From Methanomicrobiaceae archaeon (GTDB lineage: Archaea; Halobacteriota; Methanomicrobia; Methanomicrobiales; Methanomicrobiaceae): DNA of 64,000 nucleotides. Of this stretch, positions 5,353 through 51,434 are shown piece by piece. Within the stretch, counting starts at the first letter, position 1. The number at the start of each line of letters is the position of its first letter. The notes under the pieces were generated by a model that saw only the letters and a list, made by a program, of their open reading frames with translations, was not told the origin of the DNA and made no database searches. Location: contig JAFGKW010000036.1 of the NCBI GenBank assembly GCA_016928355.1, forward strand, positions 1 through 64,000. The letters run 5' to 3'. A program made the position numbers and the translations under genes.

Positions 5353-6510
5353 TTAAAGTTTTCCGATGAACTCTTCGATCCGTGCAACTGCGGTCAGCAG
5401 ATCGTCCCTCGAGACCGCATAACTACACCTGAGATGGCCCTCTCCCGATGGTCCGAATACGCTTCCTGGAACAACTGCAACCTTGTGCTCTTTTAACAGC
5501 CTCTCTGCAAAGACCACATCAGATAGCCCGGTATCTTTTACGGATGGGAATGCATAAAAGGCTCCTTTCGGCATGTGGCACGGAAGACCGGCACGGTTGA
5601 GCGATTTCACAAAGAGGTTTCTCCTGACATGATACTCGCTCACCATTCCGGCGCAGGAGTCCCAGCCGTTCTTCAGGGCCTCGACCGCAGCGTACTGGGC
5701 TCCTGTTGGTGCGGAGAGCATGACGTACTGGTGTATCTTTAATGCCGCACTACAGAGCTCCTCCGGTGCGCAGAGGTACCCTACCCTCCAGCCGGTCATT
5801 GAGAAGGCTTTCGAGAAACCGTTGATCGTTATCGTCCTCTCCCGGAGGCCGTCGATGGAAGCAGCCGAAGCGGGCTCCCCTTCGTAGGTTAGCTCGTTGT
5901 ATATTTCATCGGAGATCAGGAGCAGGTCGTGGTCGATGATGATGTCAGATATCGCCTTATAATCATCCTTACTCATCACGCCTCCGGACGGGTTGTTCGG
6001 GAAGTTGCAGAGAAGAACTTTTGACTTCGGGGTTACCTTCTCCATCAGCGCATCGGGTGTAAGCCTGAAATGATCTTTCTCCGTGCAGGGGACATATACG
6101 GGAATCCCCCCGGAGAGCATTACACCTGATGTATATGCAATATACGCCGGTTCTGCGACAAGGACCTCATCGCCAGGGTTGACAACCGACCTTATCGCTA
6201 TATCCAGCGCTTCCGATGCCCCGGTGGTTATCATTATCTCGTTCTTTGGAGAGTAGTCGACTCCGAAACGGTCGAAGAGGTACCTGGATATCAGGCTCCT
6301 TAGCTCCGGAAGACCGCTGTTTGACGTATAGGCCGTCTGACCCTGCTCTATCGAGCGTATCGCCGCTTCCCTGACGTTCCAGGGTGTGTCATAATCCGGC
6401 TCGCCAACGCCAAGCGAAATTATATCCTCCATCTCCTGGGCGATATCAAAAAATTTTCTGATGCCTGAAGGCGGGATCGCTTTGACTCTCTCTGAACGGA
6501 AATCTCTCAT
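5353..6510 (-). CDS. PLP-dependent aminotransferase, class I/II (aspartate aminotransferase-like)
   Basis: 385 residues, the normal length for fold-type I aminotransferases. Visible motifs are S-L-G-V-G-E-P-D-Y-D-T-P near 32-43, P-N-N-P-S-G-G at 171-177, D-E-I-Y at 201-204, and the PLP lysine in G-F-S-K-A-F-S-M-T-G-W-R (Lys234). The likely role is transamination of an amino acid with 2-oxoglutarate; substrate is not decidable between aspartate, alanine or aromatic types. A GGAGTGA sequence overlapping the preceding Lrp-type gene's stop serves as ribosome binding site, 12 bases downstream of that gene. The pair therefore looks co-transcribed, with the regulator possibly sensing the amino acid involved. 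Confidence 0.9.
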   Translation of the reverse strand: MRDFRSERVKAIPPSGIRKFFDIAQEMEDIISLGVGEPDYDTPWNVREAAIRSIEQGQTAYTSNSGLPELRSLISRYLFDRFGVDYSPKNEIMITTGASEALDIAIRSVVNPGDEVLVAEPAYIAYTSGVMLSGGIPVYVPCTEKDHFRLTPDALMEKVTPKSKVLLCNFPNNPSGGVMSKDDYKAISDIIIDHDLLLISDEIYNELTYEGEPASAASIDGLRERTITINGFSKAFSMTGWRVGYLCAPEELCSAALKIHQYVMLSAPTGAQYAAVEALKNGWDSCAGMVSEYHVRRNLFVKSLNRAGLPCHMPKGAFYAFPSVKDTGLSDVVFAERLLKEHKVAVVPGSVFGPSGEGHLRCSYAVSRDDLLTAVARIEEFIGKL

Positions 6511-39688: not shown

Positions 39689-42589
39689 ATGGTAAAAGAC
39701 TGGCTGAAAAAGGGCGGTGACGGCATTATAAATATCGGAGACAGCACAGGCTGGTTATTCGGCACGGATAAAGCCGATATTCATTTGATCGTCAGTCTTC
39801 TTCATGACGCCTTCGATCAAGGATACAGGGTTCTCTTAATTCTGGATCATGACATGAGAGATGAGATTATATCTTATCTCAGTGAGGAGGGAATCAGTTT
39901 TAAAGATAAATTATCTGAGGGAATCATAGTACACCCCTCCGGATTCTCCTGCTGTGATACAGGGGCGCCGGCAGAAGTTGAGGTTATCAGGCTTTTTGAT
40001 CATGAAACTGCCGAAGCAAAAAAATCAGGCTTCAGTTCTCTTTTTGTTATTGCAGACAGTAAGTGCATTCTGGGAATATCTCCCGATGAGAGCCGTGTTC
40101 ACGAATTTAAATCTGCAGCAGATCGTTTTATTGCCGGGAAGAACTGCATCCTTCTTCTTGGAATTGACAGAAGCCGCAATTCTCCGTCCTCTGTCATGTA
40201 TATGATAGAGAACCTGAAAAACCTGGTTTTTAATGGAAAAGTCCTTAAAAATCCCTGTTATATCCCTCCAAAAGAAATACCCGTAAAAAACCGGAATTCT
40301 GCAAGAATTGATTATACCCTGAAAAACATTCTTGCTTTCAATGAAAACGAGGAGCAGCTTAAGAACAAGGTCAAGCTTCTTGAGGAGAGAAGGGAGGAGA
40401 TAGACTCCCTCCTCCCTGAATTGAGAAGACTGAAGAATATTGTCAACAACAGCCCTGCAACCGCATTCCTGTGGGATGCATCCGAAGGCTGGCCTGTGAT
40501 CTTTGTATCCCAGAACATTTCGAATTTCGGCTATAATCCTGTTGATTTTTACTCCGGGAATATAGTATTCTCCGATATAATTCATCCCGATGATGTCGAC
40601 CGTGTTGGCAGGGAGGTTGAAAGACTGACTGCAGAGGGAAGAATCGAATATACACAGGAGTACCGGATTCTGACCAGCACAGGGGAAGTCCGATGGGTTG
40701 ACGACCGTACTATTGTCCACCGGGACGATTCAGGGAAACCGGTGATGTTCGAGGGGGTTTTGATGGATATCACCGAGAGCAAAGAGCTTGAGGAAGAACT
40801 CAGGCTTTCGAATGAAAAATATTCGACCCTTTTTACTATGAACCCCGATGCAATTGCACTCAGTACTGTTGCTGAAGGGAAAATTCTGGAGGTCAACGGG
40901 AGATTCGAGGATCTGACGGGGATTCCCCGCAGTGAATTAATCGGAAAGAGTGTTAATGATATTTTGTTTTATAAAGATCCTGGGGACAGGGAAGCCTATA
41001 TTAGTGAAATCACGGAAAAAGGTTCAGTGACCAACTTTGAGGTCGTGTTGTTCGGTGCCGGCCAGAGAACAGTTTATACAGAGATGTCCGGGAGACTGGT
41101 CGATATCGGGGGACAGAAATGTATACTGACAATAATACACGATATCACCGAACAGAGACTTATACGGGAGAAGATTCGTGAAAGTGAGGAACGTTTCCGT
41201 GCGGTGAGTGAAGCCGCCATAGATTCTATAATAATAATAGATAGTGACTCCACAGTGGTCTTCTGGAATAAAGCCGCAGAGAGGATGTTTGGCTATCCGG
41301 CTGAAGAGATCCTGGGAAAAAGGTTTATTGATATTGGAGTTCCAGAGGAACTGAAATCAAAGCCGAAGGCTGTTTTTCAGTCATTAAAAGAAGAAAAAAT
41401 GCATCCTTTCCTAAACAATATTTTAAATTTCACTCTCATGAAGAAAGGGGGGAAGAAGTTTCCTGTCGAGGTATCTACATCTGCAGTGAAGATTAGGGAC
41501 AGTTGGTTCATAGTGGCCATTATCAGGGATGTTACCGAGAGGAGGAAGTACGAAGAAAAACTCCGTGTATCTTCGGCTAAATTCAAGAATACTTTCAACT
41601 CTATACAGGATGCCCTGTATATTATCGATAGGGATTATACTATCGTGAATATCAACAGGGCCTTCCTTGAGACACTTGGCCTCCGGAGGAGTGAGGTTGT
41701 CGGAAAGAGGTGCCAGGATGTATTTAAGGACAATTACGACATCTGCGATTCATGTCCCGTTAAGAGGGTTTTGGAGACAGCAAAGCCATGCCGTGTTGAA
41801 TTATCTGTAAAGACCACAAAAGGCCGGGAGCTTCTCTTTGATACACTGGGTTCTCCCATCTTCAATAAGGAAGGCGAGATGATTCTCGTGGTACTCTCCG
41901 GAAGGGACATCACCGAGATGAAGGAATACAGGAGTGCAATCGAAGAGGCAAACAAAAAACTGAATCTTTTATCACAGATCACCCGTCATGACATCCTCAA
42001 TTCACTGACCATATCGACAGGCTATCTCAGCCTCCTGGAAGAGGATGCACCACCTGATATAAGCGATTATATCTCAAGACTATCGACCTCAATCGATACC
42101 ATCAGGCGCCAGATAGAGTTCACCCGCGACTACCAGGATATGGGCGTATCCCCGCCGCAATGGCAGAAACTCCTTCCCGTTCTTCAGGCCTGCAAGTACC
42201 AGGGTGGTGGCCCCCCGGAGGGATCGGATTTCATCACGGATCTCCGGGATATTGAGATATTCGCTGATCAAATGTTTGAAAAGGCAGTGTGCAATATAAT
42301 CACAAACGCCTACAAGCATGCCGGAGGAATGAAGAGCCTGAAAGTTTATGATAAGGAGGAGGGCGATTCTCTCCGTATCATCTTCGAAGACGATGGCCCG
42401 GGGATTTTGGAAGAGAAGAAGGAGAGTATATTCAGGCCGGGTTATGGCAGGGAGCATGGCTATGGCCTTTTCCTAGTAAAGGAGATTCTCGGGATAACCG
42501 GGATTGAAATATCGGAGACCGGTGATCCGGGCAGGGGTGCAAGGTTTGAGGTGTTTGTTCCTTCCGGGAAGTGGAGACAGACTGAATGA
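39689..42589 (+). CDS. MEDS-PAS(4) sensor histidine kinase
   Basis: 966 residues, soluble. The N-terminal 190 residues match the MEDS (methanogen/methylotroph DcmR sensory) domain: G-W-L-F-G-T-D-K-A-D at 27-36, then L-I-L-D-H-D-M-R and D-R-F-I-A-G-K-N. A coiled coil (about 225-250), four PAS domains (about 255-370, 375-490, 495-620, 625-745), the H-box I-T-R-H-D-I-L-N with His767, and an intact HATPase (I-T-N-A-Y-K-H-A, D-D-G-P-G-I-L, G-Y-G-L-F-L) follow. MEDS domains are thought to sense hydrocarbon or one-carbon derivatives. The fourth PAS carries C-D-S-C, a possible redox or metal pair. Confidence 0.88.
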   Translation: MVKDWLKKGGDGIINIGDSTGWLFGTDKADIHLIVSLLHDAFDQGYRVLLILDHDMRDEIISYLSEEGISFKDKLSEGIIVHPSGFSCCDTGAPAEVEVIRLFDHETAEAKKSGFSSLFVIADSKCILGISPDESRVHEFKSAADRFIAGKNCILLLGIDRSRNSPSSVMYMIENLKNLVFNGKVLKNPCYIPPKEIPVKNRNSARIDYTLKNILAFNENEEQLKNKVKLLEERREEIDSLLPELRRLKNIVNNSPATAFLWDASEGWPVIFVSQNISNFGYNPVDFYSGNIVFSDIIHPDDVDRVGREVERLTAEGRIEYTQEYRILTSTGEVRWVDDRTIVHRDDSGKPVMFEGVLMDITESKELEEELRLSNEKYSTLFTMNPDAIALSTVAEGKILEVNGRFEDLTGIPRSELIGKSVNDILFYKDPGDREAYISEITEKGSVTNFEVVLFGAGQRTVYTEMSGRLVDIGGQKCILTIIHDITEQRLIREKIRESEERFRAVSEAAIDSIIIIDSDSTVVFWNKAAERMFGYPAEEILGKRFIDIGVPEELKSKPKAVFQSLKEEKMHPFLNNILNFTLMKKGGKKFPVEVSTSAVKIRDSWFIVAIIRDVTERRKYEEKLRVSSAKFKNTFNSIQDALYIIDRDYTIVNINRAFLETLGLRRSEVVGKRCQDVFKDNYDICDSCPVKRVLETAKPCRVELSVKTTKGRELLFDTLGSPIFNKEGEMILVVLSGRDITEMKEYRSAIEEANKKLNLLSQITRHDILNSLTISTGYLSLLEEDAPPDISDYISRLSTSIDTIRRQIEFTRDYQDMGVSPPQWQKLLPVLQACKYQGGGPPEGSDFITDLRDIEIFADQMFEKAVCNIITNAYKHAGGMKSLKVYDKEEGDSLRIIFEDDGPGILEEKKESIFRPGYGREHGYGLFLVKEILGITGIEISETGDPGRGARFEVFVPSGKWRQTE

Positions 42590-43114: not shown

Positions 43115-44311
43115 ATGACTGTTCATCATGAGGAAGAATCAGAGCATTCCTTTATGGCATATAATGAAAGCCTGGTCATTAATAAAAACGGTGAAAAAAT
43201 AAAAATTGTCCGGGATTTTGAACATACAATTATCAGGAGTAAAGAGTTCGTTAACCTTGATGGAAACCTTGTGCCATTTCACCGCAAAAATTTTCCTTTC
43301 GATATCTATGATATTGAGTTTACAAAGAATGTAGAGAATGAGGAGCTGTTTGTTGACGGAAAGCAGCAAACTTTGAAACTCGTTCAACATATTCAAATCA
43401 AAAATGTTGAATATATTCTGTTTAATGGCAGTTATAAGGAATATTCTTCATTTAACCCTGTAAATTTTGGCAATGAAAAAAATGTAAAACCCAGGGATAA
43501 TAAAAAAATAATTGCAGCTGTGGCAGGAGTGGTTCTGGTAATATTTACAGTGGCCATCTTCTCTGCATTTGCAGGTGCATACCCTTCCCAGGATCAGTAT
43601 AAATCTGTCGAAACACAACCCTGCGTTTCTGCAGCGATATCTGAATCAAAACCGGAACCACCAATCCCCGGATTTTTTGAAAGATCATATTCATGGACGT
43701 ACAATGACCGGGCTGACAGAATGTTTTTGGGCGGCACGAGTTCGGACAGAACATATACAATGACAATATCCGTCTCTAAAAATTCATATTACCGCTCTAA
43801 GGACTCTGATCACTCAAGCCATTATTTTTCATCATATGTAAATGACACATTAAACCTGCAGGAAACAAAAACGATTGCCGACAGTATTCTTGAGATGGGA
43901 AAAAAATATGGATTTGGTAAATTTGAGAACGCGATGAATGCCGCATCTTTTGTTCAGCAATGTATTCCATATACCAAAGATGAGGTTTCAACCGGCTATA
44001 TGGATTACTGGCGTTATCCTGTTGAAACCCTTGTGGATAATGGTGGGGACTGTGAGGATTCATCAATTCTTCTGGCTTCAATACTGCAGGATATGGGATA
44101 TGAAGTCATTGTTATAGGTCTCCACACAGATGACCGGAATGGCCATGCAGCCGTTGCAATAAAAAATGTGGTAAACCCGATCTGCGGCAATTGCGCACAG
44201 ATTGAATACAATGGTGAGAATTACCTGTATCTGGAATCGACAAATACCAGCGAAATCGGATACATTCCTTATGAATATTACGGGGTGAACGCGTATGATG
44301 ATTTTGGATAA
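43115..44311 (+). CDS. Membrane-anchored transglutaminase-like protein
   Basis: 398 residues. A cytoplasmic-looking N-terminal domain (about 1-125, beta-rich) precedes one membrane segment (about 132-155: A-A-V-A-G-V-V-L-V-I-F-T) and an extracytoplasmic transglutaminase-like domain. The catalytic triad is visible: Cys in D-N-G-G-D-C-E-D-S-S, His in R-N-G-H-A-A-V-A-I, and an acidic residue in L-E-S-T-N. Such proteins crosslink, cleave or amidate proteins. GGGGGAAG 5 bases before the ATG at 43115 fixes the start (a TTG at 43100 is less likely). It lies 100 bases before the pilus-type operon and may process its substrates (inference). Confidence 0.8.
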   Translation: MTVHHEEESEHSFMAYNESLVINKNGEKIKIVRDFEHTIIRSKEFVNLDGNLVPFHRKNFPFDIYDIEFTKNVENEELFVDGKQQTLKLVQHIQIKNVEYILFNGSYKEYSSFNPVNFGNEKNVKPRDNKKIIAAVAGVVLVIFTVAIFSAFAGAYPSQDQYKSVETQPCVSAAISESKPEPPIPGFFERSYSWTYNDRADRMFLGGTSSDRTYTMTISVSKNSYYRSKDSDHSSHYFSSYVNDTLNLQETKTIADSILEMGKKYGFGKFENAMNAASFVQQCIPYTKDEVSTGYMDYWRYPVETLVDNGGDCEDSSILLASILQDMGYEVIVIGLHTDDRNGHAAVAIKNVVNPICGNCAQIEYNGENYLYLESTNTSEIGYIPYEYYGVNAYDDFG

Positions 44312-44411
44312 AACGGATGTTTTCTCACAAATAATCGATTTTAGAGAGATATTTTACACCAATTGCAGAAGTATACCGGTAAAATCCGGGTGCATTATAA
44401 AGGAGTGAAAA

Positions 44412-45338
44412 ATGACAGGAAACCAGGCCCCGGATATTGACCATTTAATAAAAATTCTTTCAATTATAGTTATCGCCACAGTAATCTTAGTTGCTGTATT
44501 GGGCGCTATTTTCGTCGTAAAAATGTTCACTGACGATGAAGCGGCTTCGGGGATGTCTGAAGCGCTGTCAACATCGGCAACGCCTCTTCCTGACGAACCT
44601 GATCCTGTAATTACGCCAATAAAGACTCCGCAAACAAGCGGAATAGATTCCGGTGAATATGAGAATCTCTCCGGGCGGACAATCAGGATGCCGGTTGATG
44701 CAAGTGCTGAAGATTCAGTAAAAGTGGTTGAGAGTATTATACCTGATGATCCTGCGTTTAAATCTGAAGAATTCAACAATACTGCAGCTGATTACACTCT
44801 TGCGATAGAATATTATCAGCTGCTTTACCAGAAGGAGTACACTTTTTTGTATAATTCCTCGAGCATTATTGCCACGGTGGGCAAAGGTCCGCTTGTTGTC
44901 TGTTATGATGTCTCAAATTTTGCTGTTACAAGCGGTAGTGGTACAGGCAGTACGATGAATACACAGGATCAGTATACAGATGAATCTTCAACTACAATTG
45001 AAGGCCTGCCTTATGAAAATCCATACTATTCATTTCTGGATATTGCAGTAACCGACACAAGTACAGGTGAAGTTGTGGCAACTGGCGGGTTTGGAAGAAC
45101 ACATCCGTCAACTGAAGAGCAATATCTCAAAATACCGTTGACCGGTGAATATCGAATCGACATGTACGGCAGCGGTCTCGATTTGGAACTTAGAATCCTC
45201 TCGGGAACGGTTCCTGAAAATCCCAATGCTATTGCTATTGATCCTAATATGAAGAATAAATATTCAATTGTGATCAGTGAAGACGAAACCGGGGAAACCG
45301 GGGCATCGTCTGAGCCGCCTATGGAGATGTGGTATTAA
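44412..45338 (+). CDS. Anchored extracytoplasmic protein of the pilus cluster
   Basis: 308 residues. A single membrane segment (about 15-37) follows a short cytoplasmic head; then comes an extracytoplasmic region with a Pro/Thr linker (about 55-90) and a beta-rich domain ending in W-Y. A four-residue repeat of E-T-G/G-E-T-G lies near the end. No enzymatic motif is seen. AGGAGTG six bases before the ATG is a strong ribosome binding site. The next gene, the secretion ATPase, starts one base after its stop, so they are co-translated. A structural or accessory role in the pilus machine is likely (inference). Confidence 0.65.
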   Translation: MTGNQAPDIDHLIKILSIIVIATVILVAVLGAIFVVKMFTDDEAASGMSEALSTSATPLPDEPDPVITPIKTPQTSGIDSGEYENLSGRTIRMPVDASAEDSVKVVESIIPDDPAFKSEEFNNTAADYTLAIEYYQLLYQKEYTFLYNSSSIIATVGKGPLVVCYDVSNFAVTSGSGTGSTMNTQDQYTDESSTTIEGLPYENPYYSFLDIAVTDTSTGEVVATGGFGRTHPSTEEQYLKIPLTGEYRIDMYGSGLDLELRILSGTVPENPNAIAIDPNMKNKYSIVISEDETGETGASSEPPMEMWY

Positions 45339-45339
45339 C

Positions 45340-47205
45340 ATGTCCTCTACAGCCTTTGAAATATCAGAAAACACAGAATACGTCGAAATATTTGTTGAAT
45401 CAAATGACTCTTTAGAAAATAATATAGCGACAGAATTATATCCGGCAACTGACGGGTCAGGAGAATCTGTGACAGAAGGATTTATAGCGCCTTCAGGTGA
45501 GGAAAAATCCACCGTCAGTTTGAAATCAGCGATAGATTTTTTTAAAGGCAGCCTTTTCAAAAATAGTTCAGGCAAACCGGAAAAAGATGTAAACAGAGAA
45601 GAAAAAGAGGGAATCCAAACCCCGGAAAAGAGTAAAACCAATATTTCAGAATATTTAAAAGATCGCTATACAATCCTGAGAAACTCTATAATACCGGAGA
45701 AAGCTGAATCCGGGGAACAGATTTTTTACCATTCAGATTATCCTGAAAAACCTGATATCAAACCAGAACTTTTACCTGATTCTGTCGAAGTCCTTGAATG
45801 CCACTGGCTCAATCCCCCTCATTCCTATGCATGCATATACGAGGATAGCAATAAAAATCTCTTTTATTCTGTATTCGAGCCTGAAATCTCGATGAAGGAG
45901 CGAATTATTCTTGAAGAGACCGACTCGCATCTTAAGAGCGTCCTGATATATGACAGTCCTGCCAGCCAGGTTCCCGGGAAGATAGACAGCCGGCAGATAT
46001 TCAGTATTGCAAGGAATTTTGATGACAAAATTCAGGAAGACAGGGTTGCGGTTATCGAGTATTACCTAAAGAGAAACTTCCACGGTTACGGAAAGCTCGA
46101 CCCGCTCATGAGAGACGAGAACATAGAGGATATTACATGCAACGGTTCAGGTATTCCCGTTTACCTGTATCACAGGAAATATGCTAATCTGCCGACGAAT
46201 CTGGTCTTCGAACCTTCAGAGATCAACAGGTTTGTCATGAAACTTGCACAGAAGGCCGACAAACAGCTTTCGCTTACGAGTCCTCTTGTTGATGCGGCTC
46301 TTCCCGGAGGTGCAAGGGCCCAGATCACCTATACCGATGTAGTATCCTCTAAGGGGAGTTCCTTTACGATCAGGAAGTTCCGTTCAGAACCTATGACACC
46401 TGCCGATCTCATCTATTACGGGACTTACGATTCGGAGATTATGGCCCTTATCTGGCTTGCGGTAGAGAACCGGAGGAGTATGATTGTAGTGGGGGGAACG
46501 GCCAGCGGAAAGACATCGACGATGAATGCGGTATCGCTCTTCATTCCGAGACATTCAAAGGTTGTCTCAATTGAGGATACGCGTGAGCTGTATATGCCTC
46601 ACGAGAACTGGCTCCCTATGAAGACAAGGGAGAGTGCGGCGGAATCGGGAAAAGGCAACGTCGATATGTTTTCCCTTCTTCGTTCGGCCTTAAGACAGAG
46701 GCCCGAGTACATCATTGTCGGAGAAGTCAGGGGAAAGGAGGCCCAGACACTTTTCCAGGCGATGAACACGGGGCATACGACCTATTCGACGCTTCATGCC
46801 GGTGGTGTTGAGCAGGCCGTAAACAGGCTGACCACAGATCCGATAAATGTCCCTGTTGCGATGTTCGGGGCGCTGGATCTTATCGTTATTCAGCAGCTCC
46901 AGTATGTAAAGGGGAGGATGGTTCGTAGATGTACCTCTTTAAATGAAGTGGTCGTAGAAAAGAGCAGGATCCGGTGGAATAAGATATTTGAATGGGACCC
47001 TGTCTCGGACTCCTTCAAAAAAACAGGCAACCATTCGATGGTTATCGAAGGTATTGCGTATATGCACGGCTGGTCGTACGAAGAGGCTCTTGAAGAGATA
47101 AGGCTCAGAAAACAGGTTCTTGACACCATGGTTACTGAGGATGTTCATCATTTCAGGGAGGTCTCCGGGAGAATCGAGAATTTCAGGCGGGAGTATGTTT
47201 ACTGA
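45340..47205 (+). CDS. Type II/IV secretion system ATPase (archaeal pilus motor)
   Basis: 621 residues. A variable N-terminal extension (about 1-200) precedes a GspE/TadA-type ATPase: Walker A G-G-T-A-S-G-K-T with Lys391, Asp box V-S-I-E-D-T-R-E-L-Y, Walker B Y-I-I-V-G-E-V-R-G, and His box G-H-T-T-Y-S-T-L-H-A. Subunits form a hexamer at the cytoplasmic face and drive pilin assembly or secretion. The frame opens upstream at 45277 inside the previous gene; the ATG at 45340 directly after that gene's stop is preferred. It overlaps the platform gene by 11 bases. Confidence 0.92.
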   Translation: MSSTAFEISENTEYVEIFVESNDSLENNIATELYPATDGSGESVTEGFIAPSGEEKSTVSLKSAIDFFKGSLFKNSSGKPEKDVNREEKEGIQTPEKSKTNISEYLKDRYTILRNSIIPEKAESGEQIFYHSDYPEKPDIKPELLPDSVEVLECHWLNPPHSYACIYEDSNKNLFYSVFEPEISMKERIILEETDSHLKSVLIYDSPASQVPGKIDSRQIFSIARNFDDKIQEDRVAVIEYYLKRNFHGYGKLDPLMRDENIEDITCNGSGIPVYLYHRKYANLPTNLVFEPSEINRFVMKLAQKADKQLSLTSPLVDAALPGGARAQITYTDVVSSKGSSFTIRKFRSEPMTPADLIYYGTYDSEIMALIWLAVENRRSMIVVGGTASGKTSTMNAVSLFIPRHSKVVSIEDTRELYMPHENWLPMKTRESAAESGKGNVDMFSLLRSALRQRPEYIIVGEVRGKEAQTLFQAMNTGHTTYSTLHAGGVEQAVNRLTTDPINVPVAMFGALDLIVIQQLQYVKGRMVRRCTSLNEVVVEKSRIRWNKIFEWDPVSDSFKKTGNHSMVIEGIAYMHGWSYEEALEEIRLRKQVLDTMVTEDVHHFREVSGRIENFRREYVY

Positions 47206-49006
47206 CAGTATTATCAGGTCTTTCATCAAATCCCTTGACTCTGTGGAGTTCCGGAAATCGCTCCGTGGCTCTCACCTTCCGGTGACAGGCAGCCAGTATA
47301 TTGCACTCACCCTGATGGCAACAATAATTGCCTTTCTTTCCGGTCTTATTTCAGTAATCTTATTATATATTCTTGAGATTGAGTTCAATATCTTCCCTTT
47401 TCTTTCGCAGGAGATATCAATGGCAATTGTCATTATTATCATCGTATGCCTTGTTTTTTCATTTGCATACTATTACCCTGTTCTCCTTGCACAGGGTAGA
47501 AAGACGAGGATCAACCTTGAACTGCCCTATGCCATCACATATATGCAGGCGATGTCCTCGACGATGACACTATACGGCATCTTTAAGAGTATCTATCAAA
47601 ATGAGGATCTTTACGGGGAGGTTTCTCATGAATGCGGGATGATTGTCAGGGATGTGGATCTCTTCGGCGAGGATCTCCTGACAGCAATGAAGAATACGCA
47701 GGAGATAACTCCCTCAAAGACATTTGGGGACCTTTTAAATGACGTTGCAATGGTCTTCCGGACAGGAGGAAGCCTTACCGATTTCTTTGCATCGAAGTCG
47801 AGCCATTACAGGCAGGTGGCCCAGCAGGAGATGGAGAACACCCTAAAGACCATCGAGATAATGGCCGAAATATATGTTACTGCATTTGTTGCAGGCCCGA
47901 TTGCAATAATGATAATGCTCGTCGCCCAGAACCTTTCAGGATCACAATCGGTTGAATATCTCATGCCGCTGATGTACTTCGGTCTCCCTGTAGGTGCGGC
48001 AGGGATGGTCTTTCTTCTCTATATCATAATGCCTCCCGACACACTGAAAATTACCAAAAAAGAGGTTGTCGGCAGTGAATATGACGGGATCCCGTGTGAG
48101 CCGGGAGATCTGAAGGATATTGATGACGCCTTTATAAAAAAGGTGGAATCAAGCAGGCAGTTCCTGAAGATGAAGGATATTCTCAAAAACCCGCTGCGAT
48201 ATTATATCTCTGATTATCAGTTTGGTCTTGTATTCGGGATGGCCGGACTCTGCATCGTCTCAATCCTGTACATGAACGGGACTATAGCCGGATATTTTCC
48301 GAAGTACACTTTTGAGGTTTTCATCTCAGTCGGGATAATCGCGTACCTGATCCCGATCGCCTTTGCTTATGAAGCAAGAAAGTGGTACCTGAACCAGTTT
48401 GAGGCACAGCTCCCCGAATTTCTTCGCGAGATCTCGGACATGAAGGATATGGGAATGACTCTCCAGAGTGCCATTCATATAATTGCCAACAGCAAAATCG
48501 GGGTTCTTTCATCTGAGATCAGGGTCGCCTCAGAGGAGATAAAGATGGGTACGAGCGTATCCGGTGCATTATCAAAAATGGAGGAGAGAATTGGTCTCGT
48601 ATCTGTAAAAAGAGCGATATCTCTTATTATAAAGGCCAGCGAGATAACCGATTATATCAGGGAGATACTGGCGATTGCCATTGGAGATATCGAGCATTAC
48701 CTGAAGATGAAGAATGAGCGTTTCGGGGTCTCATTCATCTATGTGGCCATTATCTACCTGTCGTTTGGCATATTCCTGTACTCGGCATACGAACTGAACA
48801 TATCATTTATCACGAGTTTTCAGGATTTTGACGTCCAGTTCGATACTGCCTCGAATATCCAGGATATGTTCAGGATATCCTTAATCCTCGGATTTTTCTC
48901 CGGGATTATGGCCGGTCAGCTCAGTGCGAACACCATACTTGCGGGACTTAAGCACACCGTGATATTCCTTGCGGTATCAATCGTGCTTTTCGTATATATT
49001 CTGTAG
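47195..49006 (+). CDS. TadC-like pilus assembly platform membrane protein
   Basis: 604 residues with two T2SF domains, each a cytoplasmic helical bundle ending in a membrane helix pair (first about 60-290, second about 330-595). Typical segments are L-P-Y-A-I-T-Y-M-Q-A-M-S-S and L-P-E-F-L-R-E-I-S-D-M-K-D-M-G. As in FlaJ/TadC of archaea, it would be the inner-membrane platform bound by the ATPase. GGGAG just before the ATG at 47195 and the 11-base overlap with the ATPase gene support this start over 47120. Confidence 0.9.
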   Translation: MFTDSIIRSFIKSLDSVEFRKSLRGSHLPVTGSQYIALTLMATIIAFLSGLISVILLYILEIEFNIFPFLSQEISMAIVIIIIVCLVFSFAYYYPVLLAQGRKTRINLELPYAITYMQAMSSTMTLYGIFKSIYQNEDLYGEVSHECGMIVRDVDLFGEDLLTAMKNTQEITPSKTFGDLLNDVAMVFRTGGSLTDFFASKSSHYRQVAQQEMENTLKTIEIMAEIYVTAFVAGPIAIMIMLVAQNLSGSQSVEYLMPLMYFGLPVGAAGMVFLLYIIMPPDTLKITKKEVVGSEYDGIPCEPGDLKDIDDAFIKKVESSRQFLKMKDILKNPLRYYISDYQFGLVFGMAGLCIVSILYMNGTIAGYFPKYTFEVFISVGIIAYLIPIAFAYEARKWYLNQFEAQLPEFLREISDMKDMGMTLQSAIHIIANSKIGVLSSEIRVASEEIKMGTSVSGALSKMEERIGLVSVKRAISLIIKASEITDYIREILAIAIGDIEHYLKMKNERFGVSFIYVAIIYLSFGIFLYSAYELNISFITSFQDFDVQFDTASNIQDMFRISLILGFFSGIMAGQLSANTILAGLKHTVIFLAVSIVLFVYIL

Positions 49007-49018
49007 GAGGCGTATTGA

Positions 49019-49456
49019 TTGAAGGAAAAAAATAATTGCAGGAACGGTCACGACGCAGTGTCTCCGGTTGTTGGAGAGATGCTTGTCCTGACGATGGTCC
49101 TGATACTTGCGGCGGTATTTTCATCATCTCTTTCAGGATTCATTCCTGATGACAGGCCGGAATCAGTAAATCTTGCAATATATGGCATTTACAATGTAAG
49201 TGAGGATGTCAATGTCACCATCTGGCACAAGGGTGGAGACCCCCTCCATCTCTCCGATATCAGGGTGATCTTCTCGGATAGCGACACCTATGCGGTTGTA
49301 AATTATCATACTAATATGACCATCAATGATGATCCTGATACCAGTGTCTTTCTTCCCGGTGATTTCATGGTTGTTGATCCGGGGAACGACGTTAAAGGGT
49401 GCAATGTCAGAATTGCAACATCAGATGCGGTTATCTTCACGGGGAAGGTGAAATGA
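49019..49456 (+). CDS. Archaeal type IV pilin-like protein (small)
   Basis: 145 residues. Short basic head, then D-A-V-S-P-V-V-G-E-M-L-V-L-T-M-V-L, the archaeal pilin N-terminus (class III signal, cleaved before the hydrophobic helix by an EppA/FlaK-type peptidase not in this window). A small beta-rich body follows. The start is TTG at 49019, with GGAGG 8 bases upstream just after the platform gene's stop. Its stop overlaps the next gene's ATG (ATGA), so both are co-translated. Confidence 0.85.
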   Translation: MKEKNNCRNGHDAVSPVVGEMLVLTMVLILAAVFSSSLSGFIPDDRPESVNLAIYGIYNVSEDVNVTIWHKGGDPLHLSDIRVIFSDSDTYAVVNYHTNMTINDDPDTSVFLPGDFMVVDPGNDVKGCNVRIATSDAVIFTGKVK

Positions 49457-50394
49457 GAAGGAAGGATGACGCAATTGCACCGGTGGTTGCGATGCTCCTG
49501 ATTCTTGCTGCAATCGTAACCCTGATCTCGATCTATAATTCAGGCTATATGCCACAGCTAAAGGAGGAGGCGGAGGTTGAGCACATTGCAGAGGTTGAGT
49601 CGGCCTTTATGGATTATGTCACATATATTGAGAATTCTGCAAGGGAGAAGAAAGGCGGCACTGTTTCCATACCGGTAAAGCTCGGCGGCGGGGATATATT
49701 TCTCTCGTCAATAAGATCAGGGGGGGCGCTTTCGGTTTCCGGGTGCAGTGATATTATCAGTATCTCCAATGAAAGTGAAGTCTTCATGAACGGAACTCTC
49801 TGTTCGCTGGAGTATGAGACTGTCGGGAACTTCTGGCATGACAGGGGCTATAACTGGAGTTATGGGATCGTCAATATATCTGAATTTTCGAATGAGATGC
49901 CACTGAGATTTGCCGGAATGGATGCCGCTTGTGATTTTATAGAGAACGATTCCGGTTTTTCAGGTTCTCTTGTAAATGTGGATTTCAGCGGAAGGCATTT
50001 CTCTGAATTCGACGCCGACGGCAACTTCACAGGCAGGACATATTACAACTGCACCGCAATATATGTCGATATCGTAAGAATTCAGGGAGATCCGGATTGT
50101 ATTTATGTATCGGGAAACGGGGATGCGATAATATCTATGGATACGGTCCTGTCACAGGAGCTGAACATGACAGGAAGATACCTTAACTTTAAGATGACCG
50201 ATATGGACGGTGAAGGAGTATTCCTGAAGAGATCCCTGCTTAATGGAATAAATACCGATCTTTACAGGATCAAAAGAGAGGGTTTTGCAAATATTGAAGG
50301 GGTCGACGGCGGCAATGACTGGTGCAGCATCATAAGCAACGATAATGTGCCGTTTCTTGTAAGGTTCGTCAATATCACCATTGCTGTGAGGTGA
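49453..50394 (+). CDS. Large pilin-like protein
   Basis: 313 residues. The N-terminus M-R-R-K-D-D-A-I-A-P-V-V-A-M-L-L-I-L is again a class III-type signal with a hydrophobic helix (about 8-30). The long body has several paired Cys and N-x-S/T sites for archaeal N-glycosylation (for example N-E-S, N-G-T, N-W-S, N-C-T). Larger than an ordinary pilin, it may be a minor or tip pilin or adhesin (inference). GAAGGTGAA precedes the ATG at 49453, overlapping the upstream stop. It abuts the convergent DUF5658-like gene with no gap. Confidence 0.8.
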   Translation: MRRKDDAIAPVVAMLLILAAIVTLISIYNSGYMPQLKEEAEVEHIAEVESAFMDYVTYIENSAREKKGGTVSIPVKLGGGDIFLSSIRSGGALSVSGCSDIISISNESEVFMNGTLCSLEYETVGNFWHDRGYNWSYGIVNISEFSNEMPLRFAGMDAACDFIENDSGFSGSLVNVDFSGRHFSEFDADGNFTGRTYYNCTAIYVDIVRIQGDPDCIYVSGNGDAIISMDTVLSQELNMTGRYLNFKMTDMDGEGVFLKRSLLNGINTDLYRIKREGFANIEGVDGGNDWCSIISNDNVPFLVRFVNITIAVR

Positions 50395-50894: not shown

Positions 50895-51434
50895 TTAAGG
50901 ATTCTTTCCTGCCGCAACTGCCAGTGCGGCCAGAACACCTGCTATACCCAGCCAGACCGGAACAGGCGACTGTGTCGGCAGGGGTGTCGCTTCGTCCCCG
51001 GTCCGGGGAGCTTCGGTCATATCAGGTGTCGACTGTACCTGTGTCGGAACGGTTGTGGGTATCTTTGTCGGCGGGTTTCCCGTTACCGTGAATGCCTGGA
51101 GCAGGTTCGATGAACCCCCGTAGGAGTATTCTGAGTTCGGTGGAATGCTCATCGTGTACTCCCCGTCAGTCCATCCGGTGGTGTCAGCCTCGATATACCA
51201 TTCCCCGCCTTCCTGGATGGTGAAAGGAAGAGTTGCGACCTCTTTGTTACCCACGGTGGCTTTCCTGAAGAAGTTCATCTCAGTGGTAAAACCTGCCGGA
51301 AGTGTGCTTGTTCCTGTAATATAAAGGACCGATCCTGATTCAACTGTCGTAGGTGCTTCAAAATTAATTATATATGCGGATGCAGATCCTGCAAGAAGAA
51401 ACAGGCATAAAATCCCCGCTATAACTCTTTTCAT
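50895..51434 (-). CDS. Secreted DUF3821-like surface protein
   Basis: 179 residues. A cleavable signal peptide (M-K-R-V-I-A-G-I-L-C-L-F-L-L-A-G-S-A-S-A) precedes a beta-rich domain (F-E-A-P-T-T-V-E-S-G-S-V-L-Y-I-T-G-T-S) typical of the DUF3821-type surface proteins of Methanomicrobiales. A Thr/Pro-rich stalk (about 120-158) and one C-terminal membrane helix follow, so it is likely displayed on the cell surface. No catalytic motif. It is transcribed alone. Confidence 0.75.
   Translation of the reverse strand: MKRVIAGILCLFLLAGSASAYIINFEAPTTVESGSVLYITGTSTLPAGFTTEMNFFRKATVGNKEVATLPFTIQEGGEWYIEADTTGWTDGEYTMSIPPNSEYSYGGSSNLLQAFTVTGNPPTKIPTTVPTQVQSTPDMTEAPRTGDEATPLPTQSPVPVWLGIAGVLAALAVAAGKNP

Follow-up and report, generated by a model that had tools for sequence, protein, structure and literature searches.

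Type IV pilus assembly genes in Methanomicrobiales and a recurrently associated surface module of transglutaminase-fold and beta-sandwich proteins

The pilus assembly cassette

The window analysed here is a stretch of 64,000 nucleotides from a Methanomicrobiaceae archaeon (assembly GCA_016928355.1, contig JAFGKW010000036.1), and our subject is the locus at 43115-50394, where six open reading frames (ORFs) lie in the same orientation (+); the last four constitute a type IV pilus (T4P) assembly cassette of the Methanomicrobiales, as seen from gene order and protein families, and the first two lie in front of it (Table 1). The first-pass annotation of this DNA had described a membrane transglutaminase-like enzyme and an anchored exoprotein ahead of an ATPase, a TadC-like platform and two pilins; all six ORFs are present, in the order transglutaminase-fold protein (TG), exoprotein (EXO), ATPase, TadC-like platform, pilin 1, and pilin 2. 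From EXO through pilin 2, the genes are overlapping or tightly packed (the start of the TadC-like gene overlaps the end of the ATPase gene, and the two pilin genes overlap by 4 nucleotides). TG is separated by 100 nucleotides from EXO, the latter having its own ribosome-binding site.

Table 1. Coordinates of the cassette genes and of the predicted catalytic residues of TG in the window (TM, transmembrane; aa, amino acids)
Feature	Position	Strand	Details
TG-fold membrane protein (TG)	43115..44311	+	ATG start, 398 aa; DUF553 3.8e-7
Predicted catalytic Cys313 (GGDCED)	codon 44051..44053	+	start of helix in model
Predicted catalytic His344 (NGHAAV)	codon 44144..44146	+	opens strand in model
Predicted third triad residue Glu374 (YLESTN)	codon 44234..44236	+	aligned Glu
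EXO	44412..45338	+	N-terminal TM anchor (residues 9-40) and outer beta-sandwich domain, jelly-roll / PPC type
T4P assembly ATPase, TadA/FlaI/VirB11 superfamily	45340..47205	+	ATG; PF00437 1.2e-32
TadC/ArlJ-like membrane platform, two T2SSF domains	47195..49006	+	ATG; PF00482 4.2e-19
Pilin 1, archaeal pilin N-terminal domain	49019..49456	+	TTG; PF07790 2.2e-17
Pilin 2, large pilin-like	49453..50394	+	ATG; pilin-like N-terminus AIAPVVAMLLILA

The ATPase matches PF00437 (T2SSE) with 113.5 bits at a cut-off of 24.9, and its nearest NCBIfam model is that of the archaellum motor FlaI (NF058587, 399.5 bits, below the cut-off of 550). The platform matches PF00482 (T2SSF) in two stretches with 69.2 bits, and pilin 1 matches PF07790 (Pilin_N) with 64.1 bits. 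Neither EXO nor pilin 2 matched any family in the Pfam/NCBIfam profile search; pilin 2 is called a pilin from its N-terminus and its position in the cassette, and its profile family is present at nearly all related cassettes. More Pilin_N proteins are encoded on other contigs of the same genome, and the major pilins may be encoded outside the cassette. No match to the prepilin peptidase family PF01478 was found in this genome, whose assembly is 84% complete.

Pilin 2 had been called unusually large and probably glycosylated. The former does not stand, since its size is within the range of about 250-550 aa given for a beta-rich family of euryarchaeal minor pilins (Makarova, Koonin and Albers, 2016, PMC4858521). 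The latter gained support: pilin 2 contains nine N-X-S/T sequons, compared to 2.9 in composition-preserving shuffles (none of 2000 shuffles as high), its 64 homologues have on average 7.25 sequons versus 2.95 expected, and one sequon position is common to 37 out of 63 homologues, making glycosylation of pilin 2 plausible by sequence. For pilin 1, three sequons are observed versus 1.5 expected (P 0.17), which lends no support to glycosylation of this protein.

The transglutaminase-fold protein and EXO

TG consists of an N-terminal domain, a TM segment at about residues 130-152, and a TG domain at about residues 245-375. A Lys/Arg-rich run precedes the TM segment, which suggests that the N-terminal domain lies inside and the TG domain outside. 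The protein scores above the cut-off of PF04473 (DUF553; 30.1 bits, cut-off 20.5) and below those of Transglut_core, Peptidase_C93 (PF06035; 17.4 bits, cut-off 27), and the LapG model NF045674 (22.9 bits, cut-off 320); hence membership of TG in the LapG family is not claimed. According to the sequence comparison with solved structures, its nearest relatives among them are LapG proteases (4fgo, 1.4e-5; 4u65, 0.028). The structure model has pLDDT of about 90 over the core, and its top Foldseek matches, at probabilities of about 1 and E-values of about 1e-3, share the TG fold, with LapG and putative cysteine proteases first and true transglutaminases lower; the pseudomurein endoisopeptidase PeiP is also matched. 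Taken together, the sequence and the model place the window TG in the transglutaminase-fold superfamily, with a predicted Cys–His–acid triad. All three triad residues, Cys, His, and Glu, are kept in seven out of seven active-type TGs near pilus loci (the window TG and six others), and among 12 further TGs from the order, 11 also have the aligned Glu.

The genome of the window itself contains six TG-domain matches. The proteins encoded at L132:397-1734, L133:5246-6574, L134:9051-10421, and L135:2357-3808 combine an N-terminus that looks DnaJ-like with a TM segment and with a TG domain retaining Cys and His; they carry two copies of a repeat of ~50 aa that is also found in the N-terminal domain of the window TG, and possibly form a separate family of J-domain membrane TGs.

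The EXO model has a mean pLDDT of 67, with about 90 in the beta-sandwich core, and its Foldseek matches are the Tk-SP beta domain and carbohydrate-binding-module (CBM) folds at E of about 1e-3. When EXO homologues were compared with families of binding modules, the best match, to PPC, had an E-value of 0.059 in one out of 20 homologues and was not significant. Relatives of EXO include lipoprotein forms.

A same-strand tandem of TG followed by EXO is observed at five out of six loci with active-type TGs (the window, L071, L186, L194, and L200). L200 has the pair in inverted orientation and downstream of TadC, from which it follows that TG and EXO moved there as a unit. Thus, TG and EXO are repeatedly paired and constitute a two-part surface module. 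The Methanoregula active TGs beside EXO (L186:3353-5068, L194:5493-7142, and L200:12810-14495 on the minus strand) have PEGA repeats before the TG domain, an architecture unlike that of the window TG.

We also considered EXO as a pilus-specific protein and rejected this idea, as stand-alone EXO lipoproteins occur elsewhere. Such EXO-like lipoproteins are encoded away from T4P genes at about 5500-6400 in each of the loci L217-L226, some at least beside conserved housekeeping-like genes. At L167:6086-8338, directly upstream of the ATPase, an EXO domain is fused to TPR-like repeats in a protein of 751 aa.

Distribution among relatives and the fused form

We searched with profiles of the six proteins in ~20 kb regions around related ATPases from 60 genomes, and in 65 loci of named genomes found with a TadC profile. 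After removal of near-duplicates (TadC >97% identical), 91 loci were retained, 26 of them being other T4P or distant systems or loci without a large pilin; the assemblies of relatives are partly fragmented. Trees were constructed with FastTree for TadC and with IQ-TREE for the ATPase. In both trees, the window cassette falls in a Methanomicrobiaceae clade; on the TadC tree, this window clade comprises 10 loci, and its sister clade comprises 23 (99*).

The window clade has TG at two out of 10 loci, the window and G014/L071, whose TGs are 46% identical over the full length; seven loci have EXO only, and one is truncated. On this count, we rejected the idea that TG belongs invariably to the window cassette type. 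In the sister clade, the ATPase or TadC gene is directly preceded by a long TG gene, with products of mostly 460-620 aa, at 21 out of 22 testable loci, a count that rests on the TadC tree; the classes were first set by gene content and then checked on the trees. Of the other two loci of this clade, L087 has no TG, and L159 is cut by a contig edge. Active-type TGs are also found near four more loci elsewhere in the order (L095/L211, L186, L194, and L200). No TG was found near archaellum-like and other T4P ATPase loci of the same genomes. Hence the linkage of TG to pilus genes, put forward in the first-pass annotation, recurs among relatives in the sister clade and at the four additional loci, but is absent from most of the window clade. 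The scattered active-TG state on the TadC tree fits repeated gain or repeated loss. The TG-domain tree groups the TGs of the window and G014, near the active TGs of Methanoregula and L157; it was not used as evidence. At L096 and L097 (G027, apparently Methanogenium cariaci), the cassette genes are split into several frames, which may reflect sequencing error or decay.

The sister clade has no separate EXO gene. Comparison of the EXO profile with the C-terminal part of the long TGs by hhalign yielded an E-value of 5.5e-6 (probability 86%), whereas the controls, that is, unrelated profiles (pilins and TadC) and the middle part of the long TGs, yielded 0.02-0.8, and the N-terminal/TG part yielded 0.006 from a match of 30 residues confined to the TM segment. 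By this profile evidence, the long TG of the sister clade is apparently a TG–EXO fusion, and we refer to it as the fused TG.

The fused TGs of the sister clade comprise 25 distinct sequences, and every one of them has lost both Cys and His, the Cys position being occupied by Ser (19), Arg (4), Lys (1), and Thr (1), and the His position by Ala (19) and Tyr (6). Changes of this kind are known to abolish function in related proteins. In HvyA, a BTLCP homologue from Caulobacter, neither the C192S nor the H226Q allele functions, and a change of His to Tyr emerged from selection for loss of function (PMC4241560); similarly, LapG C135A does not cleave, the Cys being required for cleavage of the adhesin LapA (PMC3032545). 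Judged from its sequence, the fused TG is therefore a pseudoenzyme. Conservation of the catalytic Cys and His, on which the proposed enzyme depended, is thus divided: both residues are kept in the window TG and six other active-type TGs, and lost in all 25 of the most tightly coupled ones. Outside pilus loci, the stand-alone TGs at L138:9088-10284 (minus strand) and L139:2758-3957 show a partial loss of the triad, with Cys replaced by Ser and His kept.

In the sister clade, where TG is near-invariably in the operon, it has no Cys or His and, by sequence, cannot act as the usual cysteine enzyme, so that a role in structure or in binding is to be expected. A bolder scenario is an enzyme-to-scaffold conversion inside the pilus operon: across several methanogen families, a TG-fold protein fused to a surface beta-sandwich would have become a dedicated, catalytically dead T4P subunit, and elsewhere (in the window, G014, and Methanoregula) each of the two parts still has a gene of its own and the active site is intact. 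We regard this scenario as tentative, its chances being a little short of even.

Function of the module and relation to known systems

A link between TG-family surface peptidases (arCOG03450) and euryarchaeal T4P in Methanomicrobiales has been reported before and called a “strong link” (Makarova, Koonin and Albers, 2016, PMC4858521), so that the association itself is not new. In the part of that census considered here, the role of the peptidase is given as unknown, with pilin processing or degradation suggested; the euryarchaeal T4P systems described there resemble the window cassette in the ATPase, the TadC-like platform and pilins, the large beta-rich minor pilins, and the linked TGs, and EXO, the pairing or fusion of TG with EXO, and the active-site loss are not mentioned in that part. 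Our literature search on transglutaminase-linked T4P in methanogens gave this paper as the only relevant one; neither the TG–EXO module nor its apparent fusion was found in the open-licence papers searched, and nor was a loss of catalysis where the link is tightest. What is new here is the TG–EXO module, its apparent fusion, and the pseudoenzyme status predicted for the operon-bound TG of the sister clade, along with the intact triad and LapG similarity of the window TG and the presence of TG at only two out of 10 loci of the window clade. The census left open why TG-fold “peptidases” accompany archaeal pili, and the present data split this question in two, as the substrate can be asked about where the triad is kept, and the pairing with EXO names a partner to test.

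Among characterized systems, LapG/BTLCP (Peptidase C93), which acts on surface proteins, shares with the window TG the fold, the Cys–His–acid triad, and the extracytoplasmic location. The window TG differs in having Glu in place of Asp, in scoring below the C93 and LapG cut-offs, and in being held at the membrane by its own TM segment and a predicted cytoplasmic domain, whereas LapG is recruited by LapD. HvyA is likewise homologous to TG-like cysteine proteases, its gene accompanies those of a system for surface export, and it needs Cys and His, but it is periplasmic and serves the capsule and not a pilus (PMC4241560). DUF553, the family whose cut-off the window TG passes, has a name that carries no function. 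For EXO, the PPC/jelly-roll type, represented by the Tk-SP beta domain, is the best Foldseek match of the model, with no significant sequence match.

The explanation that we favour, giving it an even chance, is that of a pilus cassette with a recurrent TG–EXO surface module, in which TG probably acts as a LapG-like processing peptidase in the window and serves the sister clade as a subunit without catalysis. The window TG would be a catalytically active cysteine peptidase similar to those of the LapG/BTLCP group, held at the membrane by its predicted cytoplasmic N-terminal domain and TM segment, with the outer domain cutting a pilin, an adhesin, or an envelope protein, and the EXO beta-sandwich would hold the enzyme or its substrate at the pilus base. 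In the sister clade, the two would have become one protein, the TG part losing catalysis and being kept as a scaffold or peptide-binding subunit. The gene order, the families, the triad of the window TG, its loss in the fused form, and the repeated pairing of TG with EXO are observed directly; we infer peptidase activity in preference to other chemistry, as well as the substrate and the roles of EXO and of the scaffold.

Several observations weigh against this explanation. TG is not present at seven out of 10 TadC loci of the window clade, including two genomes of the same genus, and hence the pilus machine does not need it. Mapped on the TadC tree, the active-TG state requires about five changes, and 50 out of 500 shuffles were as low, so that its clustering barely exceeds that of chance. 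TG and EXO are not closely packed in the window, given the 100-nucleotide gap, and the similarity to LapG is remote, as the Pfam C93 score above indicates. The homology underlying the TG–EXO fusion is suggestive, not proven, and EXO-like lipoproteins also exist away from T4P, which makes EXO a member of a wider family.

The window TG may be a mere neighbour: the genome has several surface TG peptidases, and one of them, with its own function, may have come to lie upstream of the cassette; this is in line with the six TG-domain matches in the genome, the absence of TG from orthologous cassettes of the same genus, the spacing before EXO, and the related active TGs that lie away from T4P in other genomes (L127-L130). 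We consider this unlikely, though worth keeping in view, as the order TG–EXO recurs in G014 with a TG that is 46% identical and at three Methanoregula loci with the different, PEGA-containing architecture, and the two proteins are apparently fused in the sister clade. In the window as well, TG may serve the pilus by binding or as a scaffold and not by catalysis, which would be irrelevant to its pilus role. Retention of the fused TG, devoid of catalysis, in the operon at the 21 sister-clade loci would agree with this, but the full triad of the window TG and of six other active-type TGs suggests selection for chemistry, making such a role rather improbable.

If TG acted on the envelope (the S-layer, glycan, or peptide-linked wall material) and opened a path for the pilus instead of acting on the pilus, the resemblance of the EXO model to beta-sandwich domains of the PPC/CBM type and the PeiP match in the TG fold search would be accounted for; however, EXO has no family match to a binding module, and beta-sandwich fold matches are unspecific, so this explanation is in our opinion very improbable. 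Crosslinking of pilus subunits by a true transglutaminase via isopeptide bonds, an idea of the first-pass annotation, is in agreement with the TG fold and the intact Cys–His–Glu triad in the window, the two pilins in the same cassette, and the appearance of true transglutaminases, at lower ranks, in the fold search. On the other hand, Cys and His are absent from all 25 fused TGs, where the operon coupling is near universal, Gln residues as acyl donors number zero in pilin 1 and three in pilin 2 of the window (though pilins encoded outside the cassette could still be substrates), the nearest solved relatives of TG are proteases, and most window-clade cassettes have no TG. Given the loss of the active site in the coupled clade and the lack of Gln in pilin 1, crosslinking was rejected as the leading idea and is the least probable explanation considered here. 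Thus, of the machine envisaged in the annotation, the type IV pilus and the recurrent association with TG remain, and the claim that archaeal pili are crosslinked, attractive as it is, falls away for want of support.

The cassette is flanked upstream by a large ORF resembling PAS-domain sensor kinases (window 39689-42589). Close downstream, at 50895-51434 on the minus strand, a secreted protein with a Pro/Thr-rich tail and a C-terminal hydrophobic segment is encoded, which is surface-anchored in appearance.

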